This document shows positions 20,203 through 64,000 of a DNA stretch of 64,000 nt, in pieces. The position numbers and the translations under genes are program-made. Origin of the DNA: Methanomicrobiaceae archaeon (GTDB lineage Archaea; Halobacteriota; Methanomicrobia; Methanomicrobiales; Methanomicrobiaceae). Under the pieces are notes generated by a model. The model saw only the letters and a program-made list of their open reading frames with translations, did no database searches and had not been told where the DNA came from. The stretch covers positions 248,001-312,000 of the forward strand of contig JARVGI010000001.1 of the NCBI GenBank assembly GCA_029762625.1. Direction: 5' to 3'. How positions within the stretch are numbered: position 1 is the stretch's first letter; each line of letters begins with the position of its first letter.

Positions 20203-20619
20203 ATGACTGCGCTCGATCGGTTGAACCAGTTTGAACGGGGAGTCTATTATATCCTGATCGCCCTCTTTTCAATCGTCATTCTCTTCGCGGTCATGGAAAT
20301 GGCGATACTGGTGGTCCAGACCATCGCTGATGTCACCTCATACCGTATGGACAGCGAGGAAATCCTCCATCTGTTCGGGTTTCTCCTGCTGATTCTCATC
20401 GGGCTCGAACTTCTCGATACCATCAAGGTCTACATGCAGGAGAACCGGATTCATGTCGAGGCCATTTTGCTCGTCGCAATTATCGCCATTGCGAGAAAGG
20501 TGATTCTTTTCGATCCCTTCGAGGAGGGCGTCGGTGAAATCCCTATCATCGGCATGGCCGCCATTGTCATCGCCCTCTGCGGCGGGTACTACCTGATCAA
20601 GAAAGCGGGATACTCGTAA
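20203..20619 (+). CDS. psiE: PsiE-like phosphate-starvation-inducible membrane protein
   Basis: 138 residues, four membrane helices (about 15-40, 55-75, 82-100, 112-130). The pattern LLLILIGLELLDTIKVY, the HVEAILLVAIIAIARKVI segment and the DPFEEG loop are PsiE hallmarks. In enterobacteria psiE belongs to the phosphate-starvation regulon; its biochemical role is unknown. GGAGGATC sits eight bases before the ATG, and CTTAAATGC (20134-20142) may be the TATA element. A pst/ppk island lies 32 kb downstream, so co-regulation is a testable idea. Confidence 0.85.
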   Translation: MTALDRLNQFERGVYYILIALFSIVILFAVMEMAILVVQTIADVTSYRMDSEEILHLFGFLLLILIGLELLDTIKVYMQENRIHVEAILLVAIIAIARKVILFDPFEEGVGEIPIIGMAAIVIALCGGYYLIKKAGYS

Positions 20620-20740
20620 CCATTCCTGATACGTTGACCCGTACCCCACAATGCCCCCGTACGCTCTCCGTGCTTCGCCCCCCAGCCAAAGTGTTTTGGA
20701 CGCGGGATGTCTCTGCCACGGGACCCGGGAGATCGGCTGC

Positions 20741-23011
20741 TCACGCGAGCGCACTTTCCTCTGTGGAATCGCGGCAGAATATACAGGTAGAACCCGTTTT
20801 CATCACGATCTCCCTGATCATCCCGATGTCCGGATCGGGGGGGAGGCTGAAGATATTGATATCCACGTGGGGGGCGTTCTCGAGAAAATCGGTGAACGGT
20901 CCGAGCACGACTCTGACATTTTTCGCCGGTATCCGTGCGTATTCGATGAGCAGGGAGATCGATTCCTCCGCTTCGGGGATGCGATCCTTCTCATCCACCA
21001 CCGCGATTACCATGAGATCGGCATCCCAGTTGAGGAGGAGTTTGTAGGCGACCAGAATCGAGAGATCGCAATTTTCCAGCCTTGTACCGGGATACCAGTC
21101 TGTACACGAACCGGTCAGCCAGAGACTGATCCGCCGTTTCCTTCCCAGCGCGGCCTGCGGGTGGTCCGCGTAGAGGATGATTCCTTTCAGGTTCTCGGTC
21201 GCTTTCTGCATGATAAATGGAAGATCATGGATTTTACCCGTTTCAGGCGGCAGCTGCAGGAACACGATATTGGGACTGAAAAGCGTGCGTTTCAGTGTCT
21301 GAATGCTTGCTATCACGCCATCATTAAAAGTATGTGCGTTCACGATGGTCCATTCGGCATAGATGCCATCCACCTGAAAATCCTCCCACAGCAGCAGCAG
21401 CCCGTCTTTCTGTTCATCACTCATCCCATCACGGGCGATGCCGATGATGCTCACAGAGCCGTGGGGAAAGGTGATGTCTCGCAGAAATTCAGAGATTCCA
21501 TAGAGAACTGCAGGATTCTCGACCGGGACGAGAATGTTCGGCCGCCATGCACGTTCCTGCGAAATGGGCAGGGACATCGCCTTCTTCGCAGCCCATTCGG
21601 CCATTGCCACAAAAAGGCTGCTTCGGACATCGCCATATGGCTGCGGGCTCTGGAGGTGGCGATACATCAGGATATAGTAAAAAAGCGCCACCATTATCAA
21701 CGCAACCAGGCTGAACACGGCATTGATGATAAACATCACGAAGAGACAGCCGAGTGTGCCGATGAGCGGGACGATGCGGGGGATCCTGAAAAGCGGCCGG
21801 AAACTAGCCAGTCCAAGACTCTGCTCGAGAAGGATGACGATATTGATCATCGCATAGGTGATCAGGAAGAACATGGTGATGAAAGGCGCAACTGTATTGA
21901 GGTCCCGAAGCAGCAGGACACCCGACACCACGATGCCGGTCAAGAGCAGTGCATTGCGCGGTATCCCCGAGGCCGAACGCCGTGATAACCAATCGCTACG
22001 GGGAAAGATGTTTTGTCTGGCCATAGCATGGAGCACCCGTGATGCCCCCACAATGGAATTGAGGGCGGACGAGAAGGTCGCGGCAAGGAGGCCGGCAACG
22101 ACCACCCCGCCGACTGCGGCCTGCTCAAAGATGAAATTGAAATTACTCGCAAGTTCGGATGAAGAGGCATTCCCCGCAGACCAGAAGACCAGAATCAGGT
22201 ATACAACCAGACTTGTCCCGATGGCCCCGAGGGTACCGAGAGGGATGCTGCGCCGGGGATTTGTAAGTTCTCCGGACATATTGGCACCGGCCATGATCCC
22301 GGTGACAGCGGGAAAAAACACCGCGAACACGACCCAGAACGTCCTATCCAACGGCCCTGCGGTGAGAGTGAGAGGAGGAGCGAAATCAAGCCCGGCGGCA
22401 AAAATCGATACCAGAGACGCTGCGATAATGGCGAGGATGATGTACTGCACCCTGAATGCCACGTCGGTGCTGAGGAACACGATGGAAAAAGCCACCAGAA
22501 AGGTCACGAAATCGATAAGTACCGGGGAGATAGCGGGAAAGAGGTACCGAAGCCCCTCCCTGAACCCGAAGATGTAGAGCGCGATGGAAAACGCTAACGC
22601 GAAGTACAGGGGCACCCCGATGCTCCCCCCGGCCTCCATGCCGAGCGACCGGGTGATGATCGAATAGGGGCCGCCGGGTCCGATGCGGATGTTGCTGATG
22701 ATGGAGGACATGGATAGGGCGGTGGCCGTGGTGATGGAGAATGCGATGATGATGATCGTCCATGCCCCGAGCAGCCCCACATTGCCGACGATATATCCGG
22801 TGCGCAGGTAGAGGATCACGCCGAGAATCGTAAGAAGCGTAGGGACGTATACTCCCTTGAACATCCCGAATTTCACCACATCTGCGCCCGTTCCACCTTC
22901 ACTGCCATCGCTGATGGGATCCCCCCCCTGTTCATGAACGATACGGAGGATAGTCCCCGTGATTTCATATAAAGATTCGGCAGAATGCGAATGCACCGCC
23001 GCATGGTCCAT
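20741..23011 (-). CDS. Cation-chloride-cotransporter-like APC permease with cytosolic C-terminal domain
   Basis: 756 residues with about twelve membrane helices (VYVPTLLTILGVILYLRTGY is the first) and a soluble C-terminal domain of about 260 residues (from about 490) with NILVPVENP, VSIIGIARDG and MVIAVVD, a fold related to universal stress proteins. This plan matches prokaryotic SLC12-type transporters such as the Methanosarcina cation-chloride cotransporter homologue. Probable role: electroneutral salt or amino-acid/polyamine transport. The frame is open up to 23068 (GTG), but a minus-strand TATA-like TTTATACATGG at about 23080-23090 makes a start that early unlikely; I chose the ATG at 23011. 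Divergent from the helicase. Confidence 0.85.
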   Translation of the reverse strand: MDHAAVHSHSAESLYEITGTILRIVHEQGGDPISDGSEGGTGADVVKFGMFKGVYVPTLLTILGVILYLRTGYIVGNVGLLGAWTIIIIAFSITTATALSMSSIISNIRIGPGGPYSIITRSLGMEAGGSIGVPLYFALAFSIALYIFGFREGLRYLFPAISPVLIDFVTFLVAFSIVFLSTDVAFRVQYIILAIIAASLVSIFAAGLDFAPPLTLTAGPLDRTFWVVFAVFFPAVTGIMAGANMSGELTNPRRSIPLGTLGAIGTSLVVYLILVFWSAGNASSSELASNFNFIFEQAAVGGVVVAGLLAATFSSALNSIVGASRVLHAMARQNIFPRSDWLSRRSASGIPRNALLLTGIVVSGVLLLRDLNTVAPFITMFFLITYAMINIVILLEQSLGLASFRPLFRIPRIVPLIGTLGCLFVMFIINAVFSLVALIMVALFYYILMYRHLQSPQPYGDVRSSLFVAMAEWAAKKAMSLPISQERAWRPNILVPVENPAVLYGISEFLRDITFPHGSVSIIGIARDGMSDEQKDGLLLLWEDFQVDGIYAEWTIVNAHTFNDGVIASIQTLKRTLFSPNIVFLQLPPETGKIHDLPFIMQKATENLKGIILYADHPQAALGRKRRISLWLTGSCTDWYPGTRLENCDLSILVAYKLLLNWDADLMVIAVVDEKDRIPEAEESISLLIEYARIPAKNVRVVLGPFTDFLENAPHVDINIFSLPPDPDIGMIREIVMKTGSTCIFCRDSTEESALA

Positions 23012-23080
23012 GAAGGCGGGAGCCGGACCATCGGCGGGTGGTTCGAAAACCGCCGCGGCCAGAACCACCTCCCCAATGCC

Positions 23081-39871: not shown

Positions 39872-41488
39872 TCAGAGCCCGCGCAGCATGGACCCGAACC
39901 GGGGGAGGAAGTCCTTTTTCCGCGACATCGCGCCGTCAAGGCGCACAGGCTGCTCCGTCCACCCGAAGCGGGAGAGGGTGACGTCATCCGCTGAAATAAA
40001 GAGATCGCTAGCATTTTCGAACACATTGGTGAGCAGCACCGCATAGATGTCCACCCCGCCGGTTTCCCTGAGCAGTGAGAGTTCCCTGGCGATTTTTTCG
40101 GCGTGCGACTCCCCGAAGGCGAAGGAGGGGACCATGATCTGGGCGATGACGACATCCCTGCCGAAAAGGTGGTAGCGCTTGGTATCCTTCCGGAGGAGAT
40201 CCTCAAGGGGCACGGTGTCCAGCTCCAGCCCCTTCCTGATGAGCTCGGCCCCGAACGCGGCCGGGTCGAGTCCCGCGATCCCGGCAAGATAGGCGACGGC
40301 CTCCTCGTCCTGCGGCGTGGTGGTGGACATCTTCAGGGCGAGGGTGTCGGAGAGGATCCCGGACAGGAGCAGCGCTGCTGTTGCCGGAGCGGGCTCGATT
40401 CCCTCCTCCCGAAACCTTCGCGCAATAATGGTCGAGGTCGAGCCGACGGGGTCGTTGAGGAACCGGATAGGCCGGAGGGTGGTGATGGCGCCGATACGGT
40501 GGTGATCGATGATTTCAAGAATATCCGCCTTTTCGATACCCTCGACGGCCTGCGAGTACTCGTTGTGGTCGAGGAGGATGACCGATTTGCGTATCTCGTC
40601 CACGAACGTATTGCGGGAGATCATGCCCTTGAGCCGGCCCTCGTCGTCGACCACGCAGGCGGTCCGGTACTTTGAATTGGTGACCACTTCCTTGACGTAT
40701 TCGAGGGTGTCGTCCATCCGCACCCGCGGGACATCGGTTGCCATGACCATGCCCGCCGGAAGGGAGAGGTTGATCATCTTCCCGACGCCGAAGGCATCGA
40801 TCGCTGTGGAGAGCAGCCCCACCCCCCTTTCGCGGGCGGCCGCAATCACCCGCGCACCCACCGGCGCCCCGTCGGCCACGATGAGAGCGGCGATACCCGC
40901 ATCGATCAGCGCCAGCTGGGCGGGCTCGTTGTCGCCGACGATGGCCACGTCGCTGGCGGTGAGGCGGGAAAGAGCCACGTGAAGGGCGTCGATGGCGATG
41001 TAGACCTTCCCTTCGAGGAGGTCCCCCCCGGGCACCTCGATTGCGGCGTTGAGGATGCGGGCGAGCACCTCGAGTTTGATGGGGGAGATGGACAGCGGCT
41101 CGATGTACATCCGCTTGACGTAGGTCCTGGCAAGCCCGTGCTCGCTCACCAGCCCGAGAAGCGTGCCCTGTTTGTCGATGATGGGCATGTTCCTGACACC
41201 ATGCTCGTCCATGAGGCCCACGACCTCGATGGTGGGGATATCGTTGCGGGCGCTGACCGGGTAGGTGAAGGGCAGGTCGGTGACCGTCGGCTCGACGCTC
41301 TCGATATAGAGGGGCGGTTCTGCGTCGAACCGGGAAAAGACGTGTTCGGTTTCCGCACTCAGTTCCCCGCACCTGGCCGGGATATAGCGGCCGGGCTCGA
41401 AATGATTGAGCAGTTCTGCGTACCCCACCACGCTGCATATGCTGTCCGTATCGGGCTGCCGGTGCCCTATGATATAGATGGGTCCCAT
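39872..41488 (-). CDS. ppaC: Manganese-dependent inorganic pyrophosphatase with CBS-DRTGG-CBS insertion
   Basis: 538 residues. The DHH/DHHA2 family II pyrophosphatase is split by a regulatory insertion. Order: GHRQPDTDSI (metal site), CBS 1 (VRNMPIIDKQGTLLGLV), DRTGG domain (VAIVGDNEPAQLALIDAGI), CBS 2 (YRTACVVDDEGRLKGMISR), then DHNEY, EIIDHHRIG and DPVGSTSTIIA. The enzyme hydrolyses pyrophosphate; the CBS pair usually binds AMP/ADP (inhibiting) or ApnA dinucleotides. Start at ATG 41488 with AGGAGACAGGAG upstream. This sensor type would tie PPi breakdown to energy charge. Confidence 0.93.
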   Translation of the reverse strand: MGPIYIIGHRQPDTDSICSVVGYAELLNHFEPGRYIPARCGELSAETEHVFSRFDAEPPLYIESVEPTVTDLPFTYPVSARNDIPTIEVVGLMDEHGVRNMPIIDKQGTLLGLVSEHGLARTYVKRMYIEPLSISPIKLEVLARILNAAIEVPGGDLLEGKVYIAIDALHVALSRLTASDVAIVGDNEPAQLALIDAGIAALIVADGAPVGARVIAAARERGVGLLSTAIDAFGVGKMINLSLPAGMVMATDVPRVRMDDTLEYVKEVVTNSKYRTACVVDDEGRLKGMISRNTFVDEIRKSVILLDHNEYSQAVEGIEKADILEIIDHHRIGAITTLRPIRFLNDPVGSTSTIIARRFREEGIEPAPATAALLLSGILSDTLALKMSTTTPQDEEAVAYLAGIAGLDPAAFGAELIRKGLELDTVPLEDLLRKDTKRYHLFGRDVVIAQIMVPSFAFGESHAEKIARELSLLRETGGVDIYAVLLTNVFENASDLFISADDVTLSRFGWTEQPVRLDGAMSRKKDFLPRFGSMLRGL

Positions 41489-41545
41489 GCTCCTGTCTCC
41501 TGAAGAAATCACTCCGCAAGGTAATAAAACTCGATTTGATCCGGA

Positions 41546-52842: not shown

Positions 52843-53493
52843 TCAGCGGATTTCCACCCGCTCGCCGGTGTCCATGTAATAGATCTTTTCGGCGATGAGG
52901 CAGGCATGATCGCCGGCGCGTTCGAGGTGCCGTGAGACGGAGATGTAATCGATACACCGCGGGATGTTACGGTTATCCTCCATCATGTAGGTCAGGCACT
53001 CACGGAAGATGGATGAACGGAGATTATCCACCACATCGTCCCGTTTGGAGAGCTCGATGAGGGATGAGACGTCGTTGCTTCCGTACACCTCCATCACATC
53101 CCGAAGCATGGCAACCACCAGGTCGCCCATATGGAAGATATTCTGCAGGTTCTCGATGAAGGGCTGATCCGCCACGTACATGGAGAGCTTTGCAATATCC
53201 CACCCGATTCTCCCCACCCGGTAGAGCGAGTAGTTCATCTGGTTGATGCAGGCGATGACCCGCAGATCTTTCGCCATCGGCTGGTAGAGCGCGAGAATTC
53301 TCAGCGCTTCCTCTTCGATGTAGGTGTGTTCTTCCGCAAGATTAGCCTTCCTTTCCCGAATATCCTCTGCGATCCCGACATCCTGGTTTTTCAGCGTTGT
53401 TATCGAGTCTTCAAGCATTCCAATGGCAAACCTGGCAAAAACCGGGATTTCTGCCTTCAACGCATCCAGTTCTTCATAAAATTTTTCTACCAT
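52843..53493 (-). CDS. phoU: Phosphate transport regulator PhoU
   Basis: 216 residues, two three-helix PhoU repeats: YEELDALKAEIPVFARFAIGMLEDS, LRVIACINQMNYSLYRVGRIGWDIA, then the second half with ISVSRHLERAGDHACLIAEKIYY (metal-binding E..D motif). PhoU controls the Pst transporter and phosphate signalling. It is the last gene of the pstS-pstCA-pstB-phoU operon, nine bases after pstB. Confidence 0.95.
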   Translation of the reverse strand: MVEKFYEELDALKAEIPVFARFAIGMLEDSITTLKNQDVGIAEDIRERKANLAEEHTYIEEEALRILALYQPMAKDLRVIACINQMNYSLYRVGRIGWDIAKLSMYVADQPFIENLQNIFHMGDLVVAMLRDVMEVYGSNDVSSLIELSKRDDVVDNLRSSIFRECLTYMMEDNRNIPRCIDYISVSRHLERAGDHACLIAEKIYYMDTGERVEIR

Positions 53494-53502
53494 GCTCCTC
53501 CC

Positions 53503-54267
53503 CTATCCAAATCTTCCGGTCACGTAATTGCTGGTGAGTTCTTCCTGAGGCTTCTCAAAGATCTGTACCGTATCCCCAAATTCGATCATCTTTCCGAGGT
53601 ACATGAAGCCCGTCTCATCACTGACACGTGCCGCCTGCTGCATATTATGTGTCACCACGATGACGGTGTAGTCTTTCTTCAGCCGGATCATCAGATCTTC
53701 GATCTTCGAGGTGGCGATGGGATCGAGTGCCGAGCAGGGCTCGTCCATAAGGATGATCTCGGGCTCCACCGAGAGCGTGCGAGCGATGCACAGGCGCTGC
53801 TGCTGCCCGCCGGACAGCCCCATCGCCGATTCGTGCATACGATCGCTGACCTCATCCATGAGCGCCGCGTATTTCAGGCTCCGCTCGACAATCTCATCGA
53901 GGTCCTTTTTATTCTTGACGCCGTGGATGCGGGGGCCGTAGGCGATGTTGTCGTAGATCGACTTGGGGAAGGGGTTGGGCTTCTGGAACACCATCCCGAT
54001 CTTCTTGCGAAGCCCCACGACATCGACGTCTTTTGCATAGATATTTTTGTCATTGAAGAGACATTCGCCGCTAATTTTGACTCCATCGACCAGATCATTC
54101 ATTCTGTTAAAACAGCGAAGCAGCGTGGATTTTCCGCAACCGGAAGGGCCGATGAGTGCCGTGACCTTGTTCGGCTTGATATCGATCGATATGTCGATCA
54201 GGGCCTGCTTGTCCCCATAATAGAGGTTCAAACCATGAGTACTGATTATTGCGTCATTTTCCTGCAT
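53503..54267 (-). CDS. pstB: Phosphate ABC transporter ATP-binding protein PstB
   Basis: 254 residues: [17 protein letters not shown], Walker [11 protein letters not shown]-loop [13 protein letters not shown], signature [15 protein letters not shown], Walker [14 protein letters not shown], and [10 protein letters not shown] at the end, all standard for PstB. The start is ATG 54267 with GGTGA six bases upstream; ATG 54279 overlaps the end of pstCA. It powers phosphate import. Confidence 0.97.
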
Positions 54268-54272
54268 CGTAT

Positions 54273-56243
54273 TCACCATTTTACTGTTTTCTGGTAGTGG
54301 TTTCGTATGACTATAGCCACGAGGTAGACTCCGATCACAAGGAGCAGGAGAACCAGCGCAGTTCCGTACTGGTTTTGTTCTGCGCCGGGAACATTCGTCG
54401 AGAGGATGAAAAGGTGGTAGGGGAGCGCCATGACCGGGTCAGAAAGAGAATCTGGTAAGAAGCGCCGTGAAAAGACCACCGCTGTAAAGAGAATCGGTGC
54501 GGTCTCTCCCGCAGCTCTCCCGATACTCAGGATGGTGCCGGTGAGTATGCCCGGTACTGCGGGAGGGAGAACCACACGGCGTATGGTCTGCCATTTCGTC
54601 GCACCGAGTGCGAAACTCCCTTCGCGAAGCGCGTCAGGAACGCTCCTGAGCGCCTCCTCGGTGGTTCTGATAATCGTCGGGAGAACCATCAATCCCAGCG
54701 TGATCAGGCCGGAAAGAAGAGATACGCCGAAATTTAAAAACAGCACCAGGAATGCAAACCCGAACAGACCAAACACAATCGAAGGCGTGCCGTTCAGGAG
54801 ATCCACACCAGAACGGATGATCTTGGTAAGCTTACCCTCTCTCGTGTATTCGGTCAGATAAATGGCGGCACCTATGCCGATGGGAAGGGCAAACAGGATC
54901 GCCCCCGCAACGAGGTACAGCGTCCCCACAATCGCAGGAAAGATACCCCCCTCGCGTCCCAGATTTCTGGGCGACTGTGTGAGGAACTCCCAGGAGAGTG
55001 CCGGCAGACCGTTGGAAATGATATCGTAGAGAATGATGCCGAGGATGATGAGGACCGTGATAATCGAGAGAACAATCATCCCGAATGCGACATTCTGCGA
55101 GATCTTTGCCGATATCCGCTCGTTCACAACATACAATGCCCCCAGTGCGGCGAGGACGACTACCGTCGTGAGCGGACCGGCGACCACGAACAGGATGACT
55201 GCCAGAAATGCCACCGCACCAATACCCAGCGAGCGCTTGACACGGTCTGCCATCTCCGGAGAGAGCCTGCGGCGGCGGGTTTTTGCGGATGCAATATTCT
55301 CCTCCCTCAGCCGCTCCATGACAAGCATTGCACAGACATTGACAATGAGCGCGATGACGAGCAGCACCACGGCAACCCCGAACAGCGCATGGTAGTGCGA
55401 ACTGCCCAGGGCCACCTCGCCCATCTCGATCCCGAGTGTTCCGGTAAGCGTTCTCACCGGCGAGAGCACGTTGATAATGGGATCAGGGATGATGGCTGCA
55501 TTGCCGGTGACCATCATCACCGCCATCGTCTCCCCGATCGCCCGCCCCATGCCAAGGATGAGGGCGGCGGTGATGCCGGAAATGGCGGATGGCGCAATCA
55601 CCTGGCTTATGGTCTGCCAGTGGGTCGCCCCGATTGCGAGTGACCCTTCCTTGAACTCACGGGGCACCGCACTGATTGCATCCTCCGAAACGCTGATAAT
55701 CGTCGGAAGCGCCATCACGCCGAGGAGGATCGATCCGGCGAGCCAGCTCTCACCGCTCGGAACATCAAACCCGATCCGTATCCAGTTTGTCAGCACGATC
55801 AGCCCAAAAAATCCTAAGACCACGGAGGGGATCCCGGCGAGGAGCTCGATTGCCGGTTTGACCACCGTCTTCACCCTGTAGGGGGCCAGTTCTGATATAT
55901 AGAGAGCGCTCCCGATACCAAGGGGGGTGGCGAAGAGCATGGCGCCGAGCGTTACCAGCAGTGTGCCGACGATGAGCGGAAACGTCCCGTAGAGGGGAGG
56001 CGATCCGGTCGGCCTCCAGACCTCCCCTCCAAGGAAGTCTCCAAGGCCTACCGACGCAAATATGGGGTAGGCGTCCCGAACGAGAAAATAGAGGATGAAG
56101 AATACGGTAATGACCGCAAATATCGCAGTCAAAAACCACAATCCCCTGATGAGGATCTCCTTAAGACCCGAAATTTTCCCCGCGTGGGGAAAAAGTGCCC
56201 CCCAGGACCTTTTTATTTCAAAATCCGGCGTATGTTCTTCCAT
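54273..56243 (-). CDS. pstCA: Fused phosphate ABC permease PstC-PstA
   Basis: 656 residues. Residues 1-310 are PstC ([47 protein letters not shown] with the EAA loop), residues 340-656 are PstA ([54 protein letters not shown]). The two halves are joined by a basic linker ([22 protein letters not shown]) and need two extra helices for correct topology (about 345-395). Normally these are separate genes. An intergenic hairpin lies before the start. Confidence 0.93.
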
Positions 56244-56270
56244 AGGAGAATATGAATACTACATTGAACT

Positions 56271-56290
56271 GGAGGGGTTTGACCCCCTCC
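56271..56290 (-). terminator. Hairpin between pstS and pstCA
   Basis: GGAGGGG (56271-56277) pairs with CCCCTCC (56284-56290) around a six-base loop. It lies after the pstS stop and before the pstCA start and could terminate or stabilise the pstS message, giving excess binding protein. Confidence 0.5.
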
Positions 56291-56343
56291 CGTCCGTTTG
56301 TTGCACCACCAGGTGGTGTATCCGCAGTTCCAGCACAACAAGG

Positions 56344-57225
56344 TTATGCGACCGGCACGAAGCCTTCATCCTCGACGATTGCCTGACCCTCATCGCTGAG
56401 GATAAAGTTGATGTAGGTTGCCGCAAGCCCGGTCGCCTCGCCCTCGGTGAACATGTTCAGTTCACGGGAGATGGGATAGGTGCCGGCGATGACGTTCTCC
56501 ACCGTGGGTTCAACCGGCGTGCCGTCGACATCGATCTCGACGCCCTTCACCGTCTCGCCTACGTAGCCGAGACCGACGTAGCCGATCGCACCGGGAGTGC
56601 CGGCGATGGTCTGCTGGACCGCACCGTTGGAGTTCTTCTCGAGCATGGTCGCCACGAACTCCTGCTTGTCCATCACCAGTTCCTCGAAGGAGGCGCGGGT
56701 CCCGGATGCGCTGTCGCGGCCCACCACGACGATCACGGCGTCACTGCCGCCGACCTCGTTCCAGTTGGTGATCTCGCCGGTGTAGATCTGGCGCACCTGC
56801 TCCACCGTCAGGCTCTCCGCAGGATTCTCATTGTTGATGATCAACGCGATGCCGTCCTTGGCGACGACATACTGCACCAGATCGGGGTACGACTCCTTCT
56901 CGGCGTCCTTGAGTTCGCGGGAGGCCATACCGATATCGGCGGTGCCCTCACCGACCGCCTGCACACCGACGCTGGATCCGCCGCCGCTCACCTGAATGTC
57001 AGCTTCGGCATTGGCGTCCATGAACGCCTCCGCCGCCCGCTCGGCGATGGGGAGCACCGTCGTCGAGCCGGTCACCGCGAGGCTGCCGCTCACGGGTGCA
57101 CCTGTTGGTTCGGCGGTGGGGGTCACCTCGCCACCCTGATCGCCCACACAACCACACATTACCACAGCGAGCAGCACGATTCCCGCCATTGTGACTGTCA
57201 AAAAACGTAAGGATCTGTTACTCAT
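56344..57225 (-). CDS. pstS: Phosphate-binding lipoprotein PstS
   Basis: 293 residues. Lipobox VVMCGC, then VSGSLAVTGSTTVLPIAE, SGGGSSVGVQAV, IGMASRELKD, DGIALIINNENP, IYTGEITNWNEVGG, GRDSASGTRASFEELV and GAIGYVGLGY, the complete PstS signature with the phosphate-contacting Ser/Asp/Arg residues. GGTGAAGATC precedes the ATG at 57225. It leads the pst operon and has a strong TATA box upstream. Confidence 0.96.
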   Translation of the reverse strand: MSNRSLRFLTVTMAGIVLLAVVMCGCVGDQGGEVTPTAEPTGAPVSGSLAVTGSTTVLPIAERAAEAFMDANAEADIQVSGGGSSVGVQAVGEGTADIGMASRELKDAEKESYPDLVQYVVAKDGIALIINNENPAESLTVEQVRQIYTGEITNWNEVGGSDAVIVVVGRDSASGTRASFEELVMDKQEFVATMLEKNSNGAVQQTIAGTPGAIGYVGLGYVGETVKGVEIDVDGTPVEPTVENVIAGTYPISRELNMFTEGEATGLAATYINFILSDEGQAIVEDEGFVPVA

Positions 57226-57251
57226 CACTGGATCTTCACCGCATTAAAATT

Positions 57252-57270
57252 AAAAATGTATATATAAAGG
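57252..57270 (-). promoter_or_regulatory. TATA box of the pst operon
   Basis: On the minus strand TTTATATATACATTT is an excellent TATA element about 35 bases before the pstS start. The region to 57341 contains both promoters of the divergent pair, so a phosphate-responsive regulator could act on both. Confidence 0.75.
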
Positions 57271-57331
57271 TTTACTCGACCGAGAAGATGGATCTCTCTG
57301 TGCTTACTATAGGAGAATAGAGAATCATACC

Positions 57332-57370
57332 ACATATATACCATGAACCTGAAACATATTCTGCAATATG
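57332..57370 (+). promoter_or_regulatory. Promoter and palindrome at the start of the AbrB-PhoU regulator gene
   Basis: ACATATATAC (57332-57341) is a TATA element about 30 bases before the ATG, so the message should be leaderless or nearly so. CATATT-CTGC-AATATG (57355-57370) is a perfect 6-base inverted repeat that includes the ATG (57368-57370). It may be an operator for the encoded AbrB-type DNA-binding domain. Confidence 0.5.
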
Positions 57371-58384
57371 GAGATTCGCAAAGTCCAAATCAGCGGTGGC
57401 TCGTCCTATATAGTTTCCCTGCCGAAGAACTGGATTAAACAGACAAAAATCCAGAAAAACGACCCTGTCGGCCTGATAGTACAGCGCGACGGCACGCTGC
57501 TCGTCACCCCCAACATCAAGGGCGAGAAGATCCAGAAGGTCAAGGAGTTCGAGGTCAGCACATCCACCGACCAGACGTACCTGCTCAGGTGCATTATCGG
57601 GGCGTATATCGCCGGTTACGACACCATCAGGATCTGGGCGCACGCACGCCTTCCCCCGTTCGTCCTCGGGCTGGTGCGTGATTTCACCAGCAACGCGGTG
57701 GGCCAGGAGGTCGTGGAGGAGACCGAAACCGCCATCGTCATCAAGGATCTCCTCAACCCCTCGGAGATGCCCTTCGACAACACGCTCAAACGCATGTCGG
57801 TCATCGTCAAGGGGATGCACGAGGACGCCGTGACTGCCTTAAAGACCGGTGACAGGGCACTCGCCGAAGATGTCATATCCCGGGACACCGATATCGACCG
57901 CCTCCACTGGCTGATTGCACGGCAGAACAACCTCATCGTCAGCGACCTCAACCTTTCCCGCAGGATGAACATTTCCATTGGCACGGCGGAGGAGTACTTC
58001 ATGATCAGCAGGATCATCGAGCGCATCGCCGATCACAGCACGCGCATCGCCTACAACGTGATCGAGCTGATCGGAAAGACCGAAAATTCGAAAATCAGCG
58101 GCGATATCGAGAAAGCCAGCGCCTATGCCCTCAATATATTTCACAGCAGCATGCATGCATTCAACACCAATGATCTCGTGAAGGCGAACGATACCATCCT
58201 GATGGTCAAAAAACTGGAAGAGATGTGCAAGACGATCAGCACCCATGCCCTCAAGTACGAATCCCAGGTAGCCATTTTTATCGTTCACATTTCCGACAGT
58301 ATCCACAGGATCGGAGACTATTCCGCAGATATCTGCGAGGTAATCATCAATCACCTCATCGGAGAAGAAGAACAGTACGACTAG
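57368..58384 (+). CDS. AbrB-type DNA-binding domain fused to PhoU (phosphate regulator)
   Basis: 338 residues. Residues 1-50 (EIRKVQISGGSSYIVSLPKNW, DPVGLIVQRDGTLLVTPN) form a swapped-hairpin AbrB/SpoVT domain. Residues 100-330 hold two PhoU repeats (ADHSTRIAYNVIELIG; IHRIGDYSADICEVIINHL, each with the metal-site pattern). It can be expected to bind DNA near the pst promoter and sense phosphate through the PhoU part. Divergent from pstS. Convergent with ppx (13 bases). Confidence 0.92.
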   Translation: MEIRKVQISGGSSYIVSLPKNWIKQTKIQKNDPVGLIVQRDGTLLVTPNIKGEKIQKVKEFEVSTSTDQTYLLRCIIGAYIAGYDTIRIWAHARLPPFVLGLVRDFTSNAVGQEVVEETETAIVIKDLLNPSEMPFDNTLKRMSVIVKGMHEDAVTALKTGDRALAEDVISRDTDIDRLHWLIARQNNLIVSDLNLSRRMNISIGTAEEYFMISRIIERIADHSTRIAYNVIELIGKTENSKISGDIEKASAYALNIFHSSMHAFNTNDLVKANDTILMVKKLEEMCKTISTHALKYESQVAIFIVHISDSIHRIGDYSADICEVIINHLIGEEEQYD

Positions 58385-58397
58385 AAAATCCCATTTT

Positions 58398-59987
58398 TCA
58401 GGCGGGACTGCCGCTTTCTCCGGAGACACGGCACGTAACATCGAGCGTACGGCAAAACGCTCTTTCAAAGGCCTTGATGTCGGCTTCAAGCGCCCAGACC
58501 TCGAGCGAGCAATCCGCGCGGCCGATGACCTCGAGCGAGACCACTCCGAAATCCATGCCCGTAAACCGGGCCGCTGTGACCAGCCCTGCATGGCTCCGGT
58601 CCAGGTGTTCAGCGAGCCTGAGGAAGGTGGAGAGCACGAGGATGGTATGCTGGTTTTCGGGATCGAGCGCATTGAATTCTTTATCATTCTTTCGCGGCAT
58701 TCTTTTCCGGTGGTAGCGGGCGATATGGGCAAGGAGGATGATTTCGTGTTCGTTGAATCCGAGGAGTTTGGCGTTTTCGATGATGTACTTGGAATGGAGA
58801 TGGTGCCCTGAAAACGAGATGAACTGGCCGATGTCGTGAAGATAAGCGGCGTATTCAAGCAGTTCGCGCTCCCCCTCCCCGAAATCGTGCAGGCCGATCG
58901 CCCTGCTGCTGTCGAAGAGATCGAAGGCCAGCCGGGCGACATGCTCGGCGTGGGGGATGTCGATACGGCATGCACGGCCCAGCATGTGCACGCTGCGGGT
59001 GCGTACCGACATCTTTTCGGTATAGGGGGACCCCGGTGTCTTCGAGAGGTAATCGACAAGAAGCCCGTCGCGCAGACTCCGGTCACTCACCCTGATCTCG
59101 GCAATCTCCAGCTCGTGCATGATGGTGTCGAGGATCGCAGCACCTGCCACAATAATATCCGCACGATCGGCGTTGATCCCGGGAATTTTTCTCCGTTCCT
59201 CGAGCGGGACGGCACAGAGCCTGGCGATGACTGCTTGTAGTTCATCGTGGGTGATAACGGACGGCGGGAATCGGCGTTTCTCTTTCTCGCGCATCTGGCA
59301 TGCGATCTCGGCGAGATTCTGTATGGTGCCCGAACTGCCGAAGGCAAGATCAATCTTCTTCGTACGGGCTTTCTGCACGGGGAGAATAATGGCGTTTCGC
59401 ACGTACCTGCAGATCCTCTGGTAGAGATCCTCGCTCACCGGCCCGATATCTTCCGGTCCGAAAAAGCGGTTGGTGAGACGGATTGCCCCCAGTTTGAGGC
59501 TTCGAAGCAGGCCGTATCGGTACTGGTCGCCGACAATGATTTCCGTGCTTCCACCACCGATATCGACGAAAAATGTTCTCTGCGATCCGATATCGATGCC
59601 GCTCGACACGCCGAGATAAATGAGGCGGGCTTCCTCGGCTCCCGAAATCACGTGCACGTCGAGATCCGCTTCCTGTTTCAGCAGTTTCAAAAAGACATCC
59701 TGGTTATGCGCCTCACGGGTTGCGGAGGTTGCCACCGCATAGATCTCCCTCGCACCGAATCCCTTCGCCAGCTCGACAAATTTTTTGGAGACCAGGACCG
59801 CCCGCTTCATCGCTTCCGGAAGCAGGAGATCGTGTTCGAACTCTCCTTCGCCGAGGCGGATCATCTCCTTCTGTTTCGTGAGCACCGTGTAGGAGTGATT
59901 GGGATTGAGCCTCACGATGAGGGACCGTATCGAGTTGGTCCCCAGATCGATAAATGCAACGACTTTTTCGACGGCGGTGTGCTCCAT
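58398..59987 (-). CDS. ppx: Exopolyphosphatase/guanosine pentaphosphatase (Ppx/GppA) with C-terminal HD domain
   Basis: 529 residues. The actin-like part: FIDLGTNSIRSLIVRL, the REIYAVATSATREA strand, VDIGGGSTEIIVG and GSSGTIQNLAEIA. The C-terminal HD-type domain has AAYLHDIGQFISFSGHHLHS. The enzyme removes phosphate from polyphosphate ends or converts pppGpp; in this context polyphosphate is more likely. Start at ATG 59987, preceded by GGAGCG and an AT-rich promoter (AATAAAAAG) at about 60010-60025. Confidence 0.93.
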   Translation of the reverse strand: MEHTAVEKVVAFIDLGTNSIRSLIVRLNPNHSYTVLTKQKEMIRLGEGEFEHDLLLPEAMKRAVLVSKKFVELAKGFGAREIYAVATSATREAHNQDVFLKLLKQEADLDVHVISGAEEARLIYLGVSSGIDIGSQRTFFVDIGGGSTEIIVGDQYRYGLLRSLKLGAIRLTNRFFGPEDIGPVSEDLYQRICRYVRNAIILPVQKARTKKIDLAFGSSGTIQNLAEIACQMREKEKRRFPPSVITHDELQAVIARLCAVPLEERRKIPGINADRADIIVAGAAILDTIMHELEIAEIRVSDRSLRDGLLVDYLSKTPGSPYTEKMSVRTRSVHMLGRACRIDIPHAEHVARLAFDLFDSSRAIGLHDFGEGERELLEYAAYLHDIGQFISFSGHHLHSKYIIENAKLLGFNEHEIILLAHIARYHRKRMPRKNDKEFNALDPENQHTILVLSTFLRLAEHLDRSHAGLVTAARFTGMDFGVVSLEVIGRADCSLEVWALEADIKAFERAFCRTLDVTCRVSGESGSPA

Positions 59988-60409
59988 CGTGTTGTTTCGC
60001 TCCGTAAAAATCTTTTTATTGATTGATTGCCCCGCAAACGGCGGGATTCCATGCAAATACCGGATGATCATCTGTCTCTACTGTGCGATTGATCGAACCG
60101 TACCCGGCCCCGTCAGCTCCGTGATAACGCCGATCCATAATCGATCTATCAGTAATGGCTGCGGCGTTCGGATTTCCGGCCTGACCCGGCATCAGGCGTT
60201 CAGAGGCGTCATGCGCCACGGAGGGATGACCGCCTCCGAGCAACGCGCCCCGGCGACCGGGGGTCTTGCGGCCCCGCGGTGAGGGGGGTGAATAATCGTG
60301 AAAATATCGCAGAGAAAGGCGGACATCCTGGCGTGAGGGCGCCGGTTCCGCCCTGCACCGGCACATCCCGGGAATGACCGTCCGGGCGGGCTGTTCGACG
60401 GTCATCACG
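59988..60409. other. Spacer of about 420 bases between ppx and the CHAD gene
   Basis: No frame on either strand has family support. It holds the ppx promoter (AATAAAAAGATTTTTA near 60010-60025), a GC hairpin (CCCCGG-CGA-CCGGGG, 60248-60262) and the ATGACCGTC inverted repeat described separately. Length is unusual for this gene-dense window. Confidence 0.45.
60374..60405 (-). terminator. Inverted repeat after the CHAD-phosphoesterase gene
   Basis: ATGACCGTC (60374-60382) and GACGGTCAT (60397-60405) form a perfect 9-base stem with a 14-base loop, five bases after the stop codon of the gene at 60410. A 3'-end hairpin for the ppk operon is likely; a regulator site is possible. Confidence 0.55.
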
Positions 60410-62434
60410 TTATTGATCTTCCTCTTCATGGTGTTTTATTATATCGAGAGGCTGCCCCTCATGATAGATACGGGCAAAGGTGCCCGACTCACGATGCCCG
60501 TAGATCGCCTCGATAGACCGGTTGATCTCGTAGGGAACACGGAAATGGTAGAGGGCGAAGGGATTGAGCTGCAGGAGAGCGTAGCAGGCACGCGGGTCTC
60601 CGTCTTCCGGCCTGCCCACGCTCCCTGTATTGATGAACCAGAGGCCATCAACCTCGCGTGCGAAGGGGCGGTGGGCATGCCCCGATACGATGAAATCCGC
60701 TTTTGCGATTTCCATGAACTCCCGCAGTCTGCTCCCGGGCGTCTCCGGGGAGATATATTCGGTCACGGACTCCGGGCTGCCGTGTGTCATGTAGATGCGT
60801 TTTCCTTTGAGATTCAGCCTTATCTCGGCGGGGAGGGATGTGAGGTACGCACGGCTCTCCCTCGAGAGGCGTTTGTACTGCCAGCGGAGGGCCCGGTACT
60901 TCTGCCGGTTTTTCCGCTTCTTTTTCGATCGCTTGACGTTCATCACCCGTTCGTCAAGATTTCCAATCGTGCTGATTGCGTGCTCCCGGCGGAGCCGCTG
61001 CACGACTTCCTCGGGAAATGCTCCGAATCCTACGAAATCGCCGATATTGAGGATTACCGTCGCCCCCCGGTTTCTGGCGTCATCGAGTACGGACTCCAGT
61101 GCCGGCAGATTTGCGTGCACATCACCGATAAGGGCGACCTTCAGGGGTCTGTCCGCGCCGTCTTCCATGATCCTGACGATATCTCCCTGGTAGAGCCCCT
61201 GCAGGGGATTGCTGATCGTGGATCGCAGGTCGTCCCGGTACCCTTCCTTTCTCAGCTGTTCCCAGTACTCGACGAGCGACCGCCACAGTGCCTCGCGCCG
61301 TGCTTTGCGATCCTCCCGGAGATGATTGACGCCCGGCTCAATCAGCCGGAAAAACTCGGCATGGCCGAAATATTCGACAGAACGCCCCTTCTCCTCCCCG
61401 AGAAATTCGGGGAGAAAATCCACCCACACATCGCAGTCATGCATCTCGCCGAGGATATCCTGCAGGTGTTTGATGGCTTTGATGTGCGCCTTCATCTGCC
61501 CGTCGTAGAGATCGCTGAAACTCTCCATCGTATAACGGAGCCGCTTTGCCGCGATCCGCATGGCGTGGTGCTTTTCGATCCGCTCCTCCTGCGGCACAAA
61601 GCGTTCGTAGGAGAAGACATCCTCGAGGGCAAGCGAGATATTGAAGAATGCCTGCTCGTAGGCGGTGCGGGAATGCATGTCGGTATGCCGGAGCTTTGCC
61701 TCCACCACAACACGGCGCAAGGAGCCCTCCATCTCCCCCGCCACATCGAGGTCGACAAACCGGTCAATCGCTGAGATCACCCCGGGCTGCAGGGCGTTGC
61801 GCTTCTGCTGAAGCCGCAGGATGATGCATTCGAGCCCTGGCCGGTAAATCTGCGAAGATCCCCGGGGAATGGATGGAATGGCCATCCCCGTCTCTTGCGG
61901 TTGATCCCGGGATCGCGTTGATTTTTCACGGAACCGTTTGATCCGCATGCGGGTGCCCGTAACAAAGATGCGAATATGGTCCCGGAGCGTGCGCGGCCCC
62001 TGTGCCGGCACACCCTCTACCGGTTCCCCATACACCGCGGGGAGCGGTTCCGTCCCGGTACCCTCCCCGCCTGCCGCTCCTTCCAGAGCAAAGAGCGGCG
62101 TTCCGGACCGGGTCTCCTGCGGAGAGAGCGCGGCCAGGTACTTATGGAGGAAGTCCACCTGCACGTCTGCATCGCGCGCGTCTCCGAGGGCCCGGGTGAT
62201 ATTCCTGATTTCGAGTCGCCAGAATCTGTACTGCTTTTTCGAGAAGCAGTTCCGGTAGAGCGGCAGTGTCGCCCGGATACGCCGAGTGGCGACGCGCATC
62301 CGGTGGACATACTCGATATCCTCCGCTTCCCTGACGCCCTCGATCTCCCCGCCGAGAGCACCGAGGAGGTCCAGGAGATTCCTGGCTCCGTACAGGCAGT
62401 ACCCCGAGTCCTTCTCCGCTTCGGGAATGCTCAT
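60410..62434 (-). CDS. CHAD domain fused to a calcineurin-like metallophosphoesterase
   Basis: 674 residues from ATG 62434 (GGTGA seven bases upstream). CHAD domain (about 10-410): VHRMRVATRRIRATLPLYR, LGDARDADVQVDFL, HHAMRIAAKRLRYTMESF and LQDILGEMHDCDVWVDFL, conserved His/Arg patches that bind polyphosphate. Residues 430-660 are a YfcE/MJ0936-type phosphoesterase: VALIGDVHANLPALESVL, ILNIGDFVGFGAFPEEVV, GNLDERV, THGSPES, SGHAHRPF and NTGSVGRP, all metal ligands present. It follows ppk by 21 bases. Likely binds polyphosphate and cuts a phosphoester linked with it; the substrate is unknown. Confidence 0.9.
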   Translation of the reverse strand: MSIPEAEKDSGYCLYGARNLLDLLGALGGEIEGVREAEDIEYVHRMRVATRRIRATLPLYRNCFSKKQYRFWRLEIRNITRALGDARDADVQVDFLHKYLAALSPQETRSGTPLFALEGAAGGEGTGTEPLPAVYGEPVEGVPAQGPRTLRDHIRIFVTGTRMRIKRFREKSTRSRDQPQETGMAIPSIPRGSSQIYRPGLECIILRLQQKRNALQPGVISAIDRFVDLDVAGEMEGSLRRVVVEAKLRHTDMHSRTAYEQAFFNISLALEDVFSYERFVPQEERIEKHHAMRIAAKRLRYTMESFSDLYDGQMKAHIKAIKHLQDILGEMHDCDVWVDFLPEFLGEEKGRSVEYFGHAEFFRLIEPGVNHLREDRKARREALWRSLVEYWEQLRKEGYRDDLRSTISNPLQGLYQGDIVRIMEDGADRPLKVALIGDVHANLPALESVLDDARNRGATVILNIGDFVGFGAFPEEVVQRLRREHAISTIGNLDERVMNVKRSKKKRKNRQKYRALRWQYKRLSRESRAYLTSLPAEIRLNLKGKRIYMTHGSPESVTEYISPETPGSRLREFMEIAKADFIVSGHAHRPFAREVDGLWFINTGSVGRPEDGDPRACYALLQLNPFALYHFRVPYEINRSIEAIYGHRESGTFARIYHEGQPLDIIKHHEEEDQ

Positions 62435-62455
62435 TCTCATCTCACCTGATCGTAC

Positions 62456-64000
62456 TCATTCACTCTCCGCATGCCATGCGCCGCGGTGTTCCAGCATCCA
62501 GCTCTGGCTGTCGAATGCCTCCTCCCCCTCGACGGGCACCACCCGCTCGTAGGTGCCGTCAGGCAGCAGCATCCGTGCGTGCGCCGTGTCCCTGAGATGG
62601 ATGCTGAGAATATCGTGCAGTGCCTCTTTGATGTGGGGGTCACTGACCGGATAGAGTATCTCCACGCGCCGGTCGAGGTTCCGGGGCATCAGGTCCGCGC
62701 TCCCGGAAAGAATGATGGCATCCCCGCCATTGTGGAAGAAGTAGATGCGTGAATGCTCGAGGAACCTGCCCACGATCGAGGTCACCGTGATGCGGTCGCT
62801 GAAGCCGGGGATGCCGGGACGCAGGCAGCATATCCCCCTGACCTGGAGATCGATGTTCACCCCGGCCTGCGACGCCCGGTAGAGCATCCTGATGATTCGC
62901 TGGTCGACGAGGGCGTTCATTTTCATCGCAATATACCCGTCGCCGAATTCTTCCTGCCGGGATATTTCGTGTTCGATCCGCTTGAGGAGATCGTTCCTCA
63001 TCGTGCCCATTTCACCGTGCGAGACCAACAATGTGCGATAATCAGCTTTCCTTGAATATCCTGTGATGGCGTTGAACAGATCGGTCACATCAGCCCCTAT
63101 CCCGGCATCTGCGGTGAAAAGCCCGATGTCTGTATACATCCGGGCCGTAGTTGCATTATAATTGCCCGTGGAGAGGTGGGTGTAGGTGGTGAGACCGTCC
63201 TTCTCCCTGCGCACGACCATGCACATCTTGGCATGCACCTTGAGGCCGACAAGGCCATACACCACGTGTACTCCCTCCCGCTCCAGTGCACGAGCCCAGA
63301 CGATGTTGTTCGCCTCGTCAAACCTCGCTTTGAGTTCCACGAGCACCGCCACCTGCTTGCCTGCCTCACGCGCCTCCATGAGCGCTTTCACGATAGGGGA
63401 ATTCTGGCCCACGCGATAGAGCGTCTGCTTGATGGCAAGTACGTCCGGGTCACGCACTGCCTGCCGGATGAAATTGATCACCGGCGTGAAGCTGTCGTAG
63501 GGATGGTACAGCAGGAAATCGTGCCTCTTTATCGCCGCAAAGATATCTTCGTCCTCCTTATCCAGTCCGTCAGGATAGGAGAGGGGGAACGGGCTGTCCT
63601 TGAGGTCGGGGCGATCGATCCGCATGAGTTCGATGAGATCCGCCATCCCCACCGGGTCGTCCATGGTGTACACCTCCCGCATAGGGATGCCGAGTTTGGA
63701 GGCGATCATCTCCCGCACCCAGTCCGGCATCGAGCAGTTCACCTCCAGCCGGCACGGCGAGCCGATGCGGCGGAGTTCAACACTCTCCTCGATGGCCGTG
63801 ATCAGGTCTGATGCCTCGTCTTCCTCGATCTCGAGGTCTGCGTCCCTGGTGACGCGGAAGGGGTATGCGGCGACCACTTCCAGGCCCGGGAAGAGCATAT
63901 CAAGGTTCGACGTCACGATATCCTCAAGAAAGAGAAAATGGTGCGCTTTTACCTTCTCCACCTCACTCTCTTCGGGTACGAACTCTTCGGGGATCCTGAT
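62456..64000 (-). CDS. ppk1: Polyphosphate kinase 1, C-terminal 515 residues, cut by window edge
   Basis: The frame continues without stop to the right edge (start outside). YPFRVTRDADLEIEEDEA, IKQTLYRVGQNSPIV, VELKARFDEANNI, the autophosphorylated His region VGLKVHAKMCMVVRREK, THLSTGNYNATTARMYTDIGLF, YFFHNGGDAIILSGSADLMPRNLDRRVEILYP in parts, all PPK1. It reversibly makes polyphosphate from ATP. CHAD-phosphoesterase lies 21 bases downstream, in one operon. Confidence 0.97.
   Translation of the reverse strand: MRIPEEFVPEESEVEKVKAHHFLFLEDIVTSNLDMLFPGLEVVAAYPFRVTRDADLEIEEDEASDLITAIEESVELRRIGSPCRLEVNCSMPDWVREMIASKLGIPMREVYTMDDPVGMADLIELMRIDRPDLKDSPFPLSYPDGLDKEDEDIFAAIKRHDFLLYHPYDSFTPVINFIRQAVRDPDVLAIKQTLYRVGQNSPIVKALMEAREAGKQVAVLVELKARFDEANNIVWARALEREGVHVVYGLVGLKVHAKMCMVVRREKDGLTTYTHLSTGNYNATTARMYTDIGLFTADAGIGADVTDLFNAITGYSRKADYRTLLVSHGEMGTMRNDLLKRIEHEISRQEEFGDGYIAMKMNALVDQRIIRMLYRASQAGVNIDLQVRGICCLRPGIPGFSDRITVTSIVGRFLEHSRIYFFHNGGDAIILSGSADLMPRNLDRRVEILYPVSDPHIKEALHDILSIHLRDTAHARMLLPDGTYERVVPVEGEEAFDSQSWMLEHRGAWHAESE

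Follow-up and report, generated by a model that had tools for sequence, protein, structure and literature searches.

A phosphate-import and polyphosphate gene island of a methanogen joins two modules of known kinds in one family of Methanomicrobiales

To our knowledge, polyphosphate (polyP) homeostasis in archaea has been little studied. The locus analyzed here lies in a 64,000-nucleotide (nt) stretch of a Methanomicrobiaceae genome (assembly GCA_029762625.1, 2.2 Mb in 28 contigs; positions 248001-312000 of contig JARVGI010000001.1), hereafter the window, and combines genes for phosphate import with genes for polyP synthesis, binding and breakdown. Two kinds of described gene cluster come closest to it. 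The first is the pstSCAB-phoU operon, of which Methanosarcina mazei has two copies; the import genes of the window resemble it in their components, in having phoU last and in encoding a PstB equivalog. Set beside that operon, the window shows a fused PstC-PstA permease and a divergent AbrB-PhoU gene with a conserved promoter element, features that are known for the window side only. The second is the polyP operon with a CHAD gene (PMC6537752, citing Iyer and Aravind 2002), in which ppk1, CHAD and ppx are found together, as they are in the window. Unlike the operons described in that source, the CHAD protein of the window bears a C-terminal calcineurin-like phosphoesterase and the gene cluster adjoins pst; sister genera add a stand-alone HD gene as well as, in two loci checked, ppk2. 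We find that the island is a real joining of two modules of known kinds, seen in one family only.

The evidence for this joining comes from 90 genomes drawn evenly from the order, the window's own among them and 17 of them from its family. AbrB-PhoU and the fused PstCA were both found in 76 of the 90 genomes; they lie at most 4 kb apart in 62 of these 76 and are divergent in 61. The divergent arrangement occurs in 37 of 42 genomes with ppk1 and in 24 of 34 in which ppk1 was not detected, and a tie between AbrB-PhoU and pst across the order is thus supported. These linkage counts exclude partial AbrB-PhoU matches below 280 bits and PstCA matches below 400 bits (other, unfused or fragmentary permeases), save for paired PstCA matches within one open frame, which were merged (G004, G010, G015, G016, G028, G033, G052 and G076); one genome, G051, is incomplete. 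PPK1 was found in 45 of the 90 genomes. Of 39 relative CHAD loci, 34 have ppk1 no more than 2 kb from CHAD, and 25 have a full-length ppx within that distance as well.

Linkage between the two modules was far more restricted. Only 7 of the 42 genomes holding both PPK1 and PstCA have ppk1 within 15 kb of pst. All seven belong to the window's family, of which they are every ppk1-bearing member, and the linkage was found in none of the 35 other genomes holding both, a negative weakened by contig breaks: only 11 of those 35 carry the two loci on a single contig, at distances of 39 kb to 1.6 Mb. The compact phosphate/polyphosphate island described by the initial annotation was confirmed; in the family, import and polyP-turnover genes are kept together in every examined genome with ppk1. 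The comparison of gene order that it had suggested showed ppk1, CHAD and ppx to be commonly grouped, with linkage to pst seen within the family only.

All eight adjacent genes that had been listed for the island are present where they had been placed, were correctly named, and exceed curated cut-offs in Pfam and/or NCBIfam (Table 1). The PPK1 gene is truncated by the window end; its full length of 728 aa was read from the genome. The four tests for a Pst phosphate transporter (TIGR02136, TIGR02138, TIGR00974 and TIGR00972) each gave scores above cut-off, and phoU encodes a full-length PhoU equivalog. The PstC-PstA fusion is ordinary for this group, because the fused frame recurs through the order. 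The AbrB-PhoU product contains an AbrB/MazE domain (PF04014, 34.2 bits against a gathering score of 24.7). It is a PhoU-domain protein and not a PhoU equivalog, because PF01895 exceeds its gathering score in two stretches but TIGR02135 reaches only 74.6 bits against a cut-off of 130.25. An AbrB-PhoU protein of Thermococcus, TK2157, is reported among the proteins of a chromosome preparation (PMC7325993).

Table 1. Features of the island and of its surroundings. L007 is the stretch holding the window's locus (L007:14643 corresponds to window-equivalent position 64642); other positions are those of the window.
Feature	Position	Strand	Evidence or remark
phoU, 216 aa	52843..53493	-	TIGR02135 163.2 bits (cut-off 130.25), PF01895
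pstB ATPase, 258 aa	53503..54279	-	TIGR00972 408.6 bits (cut-off 343.2)
pstC-pstA fusion permease, 656 aa	54273..56243	-	TIGR02138 448.6 + TIGR00974 465.0 bits, single frame
pstS phosphate-binding protein, 294 aa	56344..57228	-	TIGR02136 265.3 bits (cut-off 206.6)
Intergenic region, divergent pstS / AbrB-phoU	57229..57367 (139 nt)	.	
Conserved 18-nt element copy (TttTCGAAatAgAcTATA)	57273..57290	+	degenerate at 3' end
AbrB(MazE)-PhoU-PhoU putative regulator, 338 aa	57368..58384	+	PF04014 2.5e-8, PF01895 2.9e-26 (two stretches)
ppx/gppA exopolyphosphatase-like, HD domain III, 557 aa if read from the first start codon	58398..60071	-	PF02541 1.5e-66, PF21447 4.9e-33
CHAD (two halves) + calcineurin-like phosphoesterase, 676 aa	60410..62440	-	PF05235 8.1e-45, PF12850 3.9e-23
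ppk1, 728 aa in full	62456..64000, on to window-equivalent 64642 (L007:14643)	-	TIGR03705 829.7 bits (cut-off 465.85)
Response regulator, upstream of ppk1	L007:14719-15213		
PhoU-fold protein, 648 aa, divergent from ppk1 side	L007:16007-17953 (window-equivalent 66006-67952)		
Short pyruvate phosphate dikinase (PPDK), 535 aa, after PhoU-fold gene	L007:17968-19575 (window-equivalent 67967-69574)		
PsiE	20203..20619		32 kb from island
DHH-CBS-DRTGG-DHHA2 pyrophosphatase	39872..41512		11 kb from island

Genome-wide, the sole PPK1, CHAD and Ppx matches (one each) all sit in the island, as do two of the three proteins matching a PhoU profile; the single PPK2 of this genome is on another contig. The third PhoU-profile protein, a PhoU-TrkA_C protein (L008:2247-4692), adjoins an MgtE-type transporter. 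No Rfam family reached its gathering score within L007. The PPK1 equivalog contains HAK470 and HLSTGNYN489, which we take to be the catalytic histidine motifs. The Ppx/GppA protein matches both Pfam families in Table 1 and contains DLGTNS and DIGGGS, presumably the ASKHA phosphatase motifs of this family. Since its score with TIGR03706, the model for exopolyphosphatase proper, is 276.4 bits and under the cut-off of 307, it could be an exopolyphosphatase or a guanosine pentaphosphatase. Some relatives have additional kinase genes. Two tandem ppk1 genes stand ahead of CHAD in L032, L033, L034, L035, L036, L038 and L039; the copies are about 64% and 53% identical to the ppk1 of the window, and each has retained the first histidine motif, as HAK or HSK. 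For the second motif, a strict pattern gave no match in the second copies, but it also failed on many single copies. In sister genera a two-domain PPK2 lies between ppk1 and CHAD (L025:7487-8971 and L029:7472-8947).

The modules are arranged in two ways within the family. In the window, the gaps within pst-phoU are 9, -7 (the overlap of pstCA with pstB) and 100 nt, the divergent pstS/AbrB-phoU gap is 139 nt, and ppk1-CHAD-ppx, with gaps of 15 nt (ppk1-CHAD) and 338 nt (CHAD-ppx), reads toward AbrB-phoU, from which ppx is separated by a convergent gap of 13 nt. A shared divergent control region had been proposed at 57226-57367. The region is real, with limits of 57229-57367, and it is common to pstS and AbrB-PhoU alone. 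The ppk1 promoter is beyond the window end and a separate ppx promoter could lie within the 338-nt gap after CHAD; the polyP genes of the window's genus appear to be transcribed apart from pst. The other genome of this genus (G066) has all the island genes in the same order, so that in both genomes the storage genes are on the far side of AbrB-phoU from pst. In five sister genomes (L025, L026, L027, L029 and L030) the order is pst, phoU, ppk1, CHAD, HD, ppx, and ppk1 follows phoU by 29, 13, 13, 82 and 6 nt, respectively, by first-start calls; L029 and L030 showed no pstS in the interval from AbrB-phoU to pstCA. Because these distances are so short, shared control of pst and ppk1 is plausible in the five sister genomes.

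A conserved 18-nt element precedes AbrB-phoU. Of the 200-nt upstream sequences from 26 genomes, three near-duplicates were dropped and 23 sequences were used. The shared motif, TttTCGAAatAgAcTATA, had a log-likelihood ratio of 171.1, compared with 59-72 in six dinucleotide shuffles that were given fewer starting seeds than the real set. Its CGA core was found in 21 of the 23 sequences; in 20 of them it lies 82-101 nt ahead of the start codon, and in one at 121 nt. The window copy has the top score in the 64-kb window, though it was also a training sequence; the second-best match (11.7 bits) is inside pstCA. Among the loci compared, the 300-nt upstream regions of ppk1, of ppx and of the PhoU-fold gene that lies beyond ppk1 contained no copy above 11 bits, and one 12.4-bit match was found upstream of each of two CHAD genes (L041 and L055). 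When the element was written as a single IUPAC string and sought genome-wide, one match turned up, on another contig; this string misses the window's own copy, so the result says little.

The CHAD protein of the window scores 154 bits with PF05235. Its phosphoesterase domain contains DVH440-442, GD467-468, GN493-494, TH552-553 and GHAH587-590, corresponding to what we take to be the calcineurin-like metal-site motifs (DxH, GD, GN, H and GHxH). We aligned 40 CHAD proteins including that of the window (row 41 of the alignment, L063, has the phosphoesterase but no CHAD). The phosphoesterase is fused in 26 of the 40, and the metal-site residues are intact in 24 of these. A Pfam-confirmed Ppx-III/HD domain takes its place in nine proteins (L047-L054 and L060), and five have no residues in the partner-domain region. 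A separate gene that matches the Ppx HD domain is found next to CHAD in 10 of the 39 relative loci, each of which has the phosphoesterase form, with Pfam confirmation for L025, L026 and L029. CHAD and CYTH domains occur in one protein in L099 and L107; PMC6537752 had already described this pairing and also reports that CHAD binds polyP. Because the partner varies among phosphoesterase, Ppx-III/HD and CYTH, CHAD looks like a polyP-holding scaffold to which different lineages attach different phosphohydrolases. By its description, Mhun_2988 of Methanospirillum hungatei, a CHAD-metallophosphoesterase, has the same domain pair as the window protein. It differs in being merely listed in the proteome and described as tied to chelating of metals (PMC9275234), and the word polyphosphate is absent from that paper. 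PolyP granules are reported for M. hungatei strain JF-1 (PMC11346949).

Cutting of polyP by the CHAD-fused phosphoesterase is a fair hypothesis, not a result. It is suggested because the homology searches reported in PMC6864096 gave no endopolyphosphatase homologue in archaea and because the yeast endopolyphosphatase PPN1 is calcineurin-like (PMC6973038), which places the ability to cut polyP within this superfamily; the likeness considered here is at the superfamily level. Alternatively, the attached domain may not act on polyP, being a YfcE-type small-molecule phosphodiesterase or a decaying structural domain, such that CHAD alone counts. The NCBIfam matches of the domain are to YfcE-type phosphodiesterases, all under cut-off, and both its degenerate active site in two proteins (L024:8984-10993, from the window's closest relative, and L042:8909-11062) and its replacement or absence in others fit this explanation. 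Against it are the intact metal sites in the large majority of the fusions and the finding that the alternative CHAD partners are likewise of phosphohydrolase type. We consider a role without polyP a serious possibility, but one toward which we do not lean.

From the genes, domains, motifs, gene order, conservation and element that we observed, we infer a model in which binding, sensing, transcription units and substrates are all conditional. PstS, fused PstCA and PstB would import phosphate, and PhoU would restrain the transporter. AbrB-PhoU would sense phosphate status via its PhoU domains, and its AbrB domain would act on the common pst/AbrB-phoU promoter region, with the conserved element as the likely target. 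PPK1 would make polyP from ATP, CHAD would hold the chain and Ppx would trim the chain end, while the tethered phosphoesterase would act at the granule by cutting polyP or a related phosphoester. A separate convergent unit with a promoter beyond the window would hold the storage genes in the window's genus, whereas in the sister genera they follow phoU and are probably on the pst transcript. Taken as a whole, import under AbrB-PhoU with storage by PPK1, CHAD and Ppx as a separate unit in the window's genus is the reading that we favor, and we consider it reasonably probable. Several observations weigh against it. Of the 35 genomes scored as unlinked, 24 have ppk1 on one contig and pst on another and could be linked beyond a contig end, and 10 of the 17 genomes of the family show no PPK1. 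At 13.1 bits, the window copy belongs to the weaker examples of the element, which may be either an operator or a core promoter (B recognition element/TATA box). Finally, phosphoesterase activity would be non-essential in L024 and L042, because the metal site is lost there.

The two modules might simply have become neighbors in an ancestor of one family, with no common function or control beyond phosphate. Linkage in so few of the genomes holding both, all of a single family, and the existence of two distinct arrangements within that family are consistent with this explanation. However, the linkage was kept in all seven genomes despite rearrangement, and five of them have an operon-like order in which little space separates phoU from ppk1; we consider mere proximity unlikely.

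The initial annotation had also proposed that AbrB-PhoU governs polyP storage. As a single switch for uptake and storage, AbrB-PhoU would cause pst, ppk1, CHAD and ppx to respond together, and the adjacency of pst and ppk1 in every ppk1-bearing genome of the family, the 6-82 nt between phoU and ppk1 in five and the presence of ppk2 next in two Pfam-checked loci (L025 and L029) would all suit such a switch. In the window's genus, however, the polyP genes converge on AbrB-PhoU, the element search upstream of ppk1 gave nothing above its 11-bit threshold, and AbrB-PhoU remains divergent from pst in most genomes in which ppk1 was not detected. Moreover, phosphate starvation of M. mazei is reported to raise expression of the pst-phoU genes (two pst copies) and to lower that of ppk1 4.2-fold, while overplus gives 5.7-fold more ppk1 than starvation does (PMC6864096). 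Because ppk1 and pst respond in opposite directions there, a common switch that moves the two in parallel is unlikely, if the M. mazei response holds here. Thus, a single-switch model of storage is not supported for the window's genus, and we consider it improbable. The suggested wider regulon with PsiE and the CBS-domain pyrophosphatase was rejected: both genes are real, but no link to the island was found, the best element-like strings scoring 6.4 bits near PsiE (21516) and 7.0 bits within the pyrophosphatase gene (40427), compared with 13.1 bits for the copy in the island. The PsiE-family gene adjoins a prokaryotic cation-chloride cotransporter gene on the opposite strand (window 20203-23068).

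Two genes beyond ppk1 and the response regulator gene, encoding a PhoU-fold protein and a short PPDK, are a more novel lead than the island. The PhoU-fold protein has no Pfam or NCBIfam match. In its predicted model, the last ~225 residues form a PhoU helical bundle, an assignment of fold only (3l39, Z 24.7, root-mean-square deviation 2.7, 205 residues aligned), and eight more PhoU or PhoU-like entries have Z scores of 19.9-21.9. The N-terminal ~400 residues contain many polar residues that are invariant in 45 sequences (H158, H165, H213, D232, H239, D256, H258, D324, R329, K330 and H355). No convincing known fold was found for this half: the best matches, 6k4y chain M (Z 8.1) and 1kaf (the T4 MotA DNA-binding domain; Z 7.9), cover ~104 residues and are at noise level; Foldseek returned nothing at E <= 0.001 for either model. 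On plasmids this protein is annotated as a DUF47 family protein, a phosphate transport regulator or a hypothetical protein. The short PPDK has in common with pyruvate phosphate dikinase the ATP-grasp and phosphohistidine domains (PF01326 and PF00391 only) and the histidine motif, TSHAAVVAR. Unlike the full enzyme, it aligns to the first ~510 of ~875 residues and has no phosphoenolpyruvate (PEP)/pyruvate barrel; its TIGR01828 score is 554.9, below the cut-off of 843.45, with the match reaching position 507 of 865.

A scan of named genomes gave 326 relatives of the PhoU-fold protein, the best 80 of which come, by label, from archaea, Proteobacteria, Planctomycetes and others. The short PPDK gene adjoins the PhoU-fold gene in 77 of these best 80 loci, and the other three stop at a contig edge. 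In the order, 12 of the 90 genomes have the pair; it lies less than 6 kb from ppk1 in five, on a different contig in five and far away in two. The binomial value for this proximity (1.5e-8) ignores kinship, the genomes being from three genera. Phosphate genes (ppk1, ppx, CHAD, phoU, AbrB-PhoU, pstS or pstCA) flank the pair in 20 of the best 80 named loci, a count that excludes PstB-only loci, which include unrelated ABC ATPases, and in which many loci end early at contig ends. Since only these 20 are so flanked, and since two bacterial plasmids carry the pair among fatty-acid and oxidoreductase genes, a phosphate-specific role of the pair everywhere was rejected; in bacteria the visible surroundings of the pair often contain no phosphate genes. 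A contig labeled Thermoleophilia (L099) carries the pair with Ppx and CYTH-CHAD at an identity (48%) like that of the methanogen loci, which could reflect misbinning or gene transfer. On a contig labeled Candidatus Accumulibacter (L152), a genus known to store polyP, the pair is ~2.6 kb from pst genes.

One speculative function for the pair is that of a two-protein dikinase. The short PPDK would use ATP and phosphate to make phosphohistidine, with AMP and pyrophosphate as the released products. Because it has no PEP/pyruvate barrel of its own, it would pass the phosphoryl group either directly to the partner or to a substrate bound in the partner's conserved N-terminal half, with gating by the PhoU domain as a reader of phosphate. 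We regard this scheme as quite doubtful. Phenylphosphate synthase of Thauera, presumably a split PEP-synthase-like phosphotransferase, is a possible analogue.

The pair is widespread, and our open-licence literature searches found no paper on it; if the dikinase scheme is true, the pair would tie phosphate level to polyP in those archaea in which ppk1 or pst is its neighbor. The interchangeable phosphohydrolases attached to CHAD are candidate polyP-cutting enzymes in archaea, the domain of life in which the reported homology searches found no endopolyphosphatase (PMC6864096). In M. mazei, the same source reports opposite responses of ppk1 and pst. With co-linear versions of the island in the sister genera and separated versions in the window's genus, this one methanogen family provides a natural experiment on whether control of phosphate uptake has to be coupled to that of storage.

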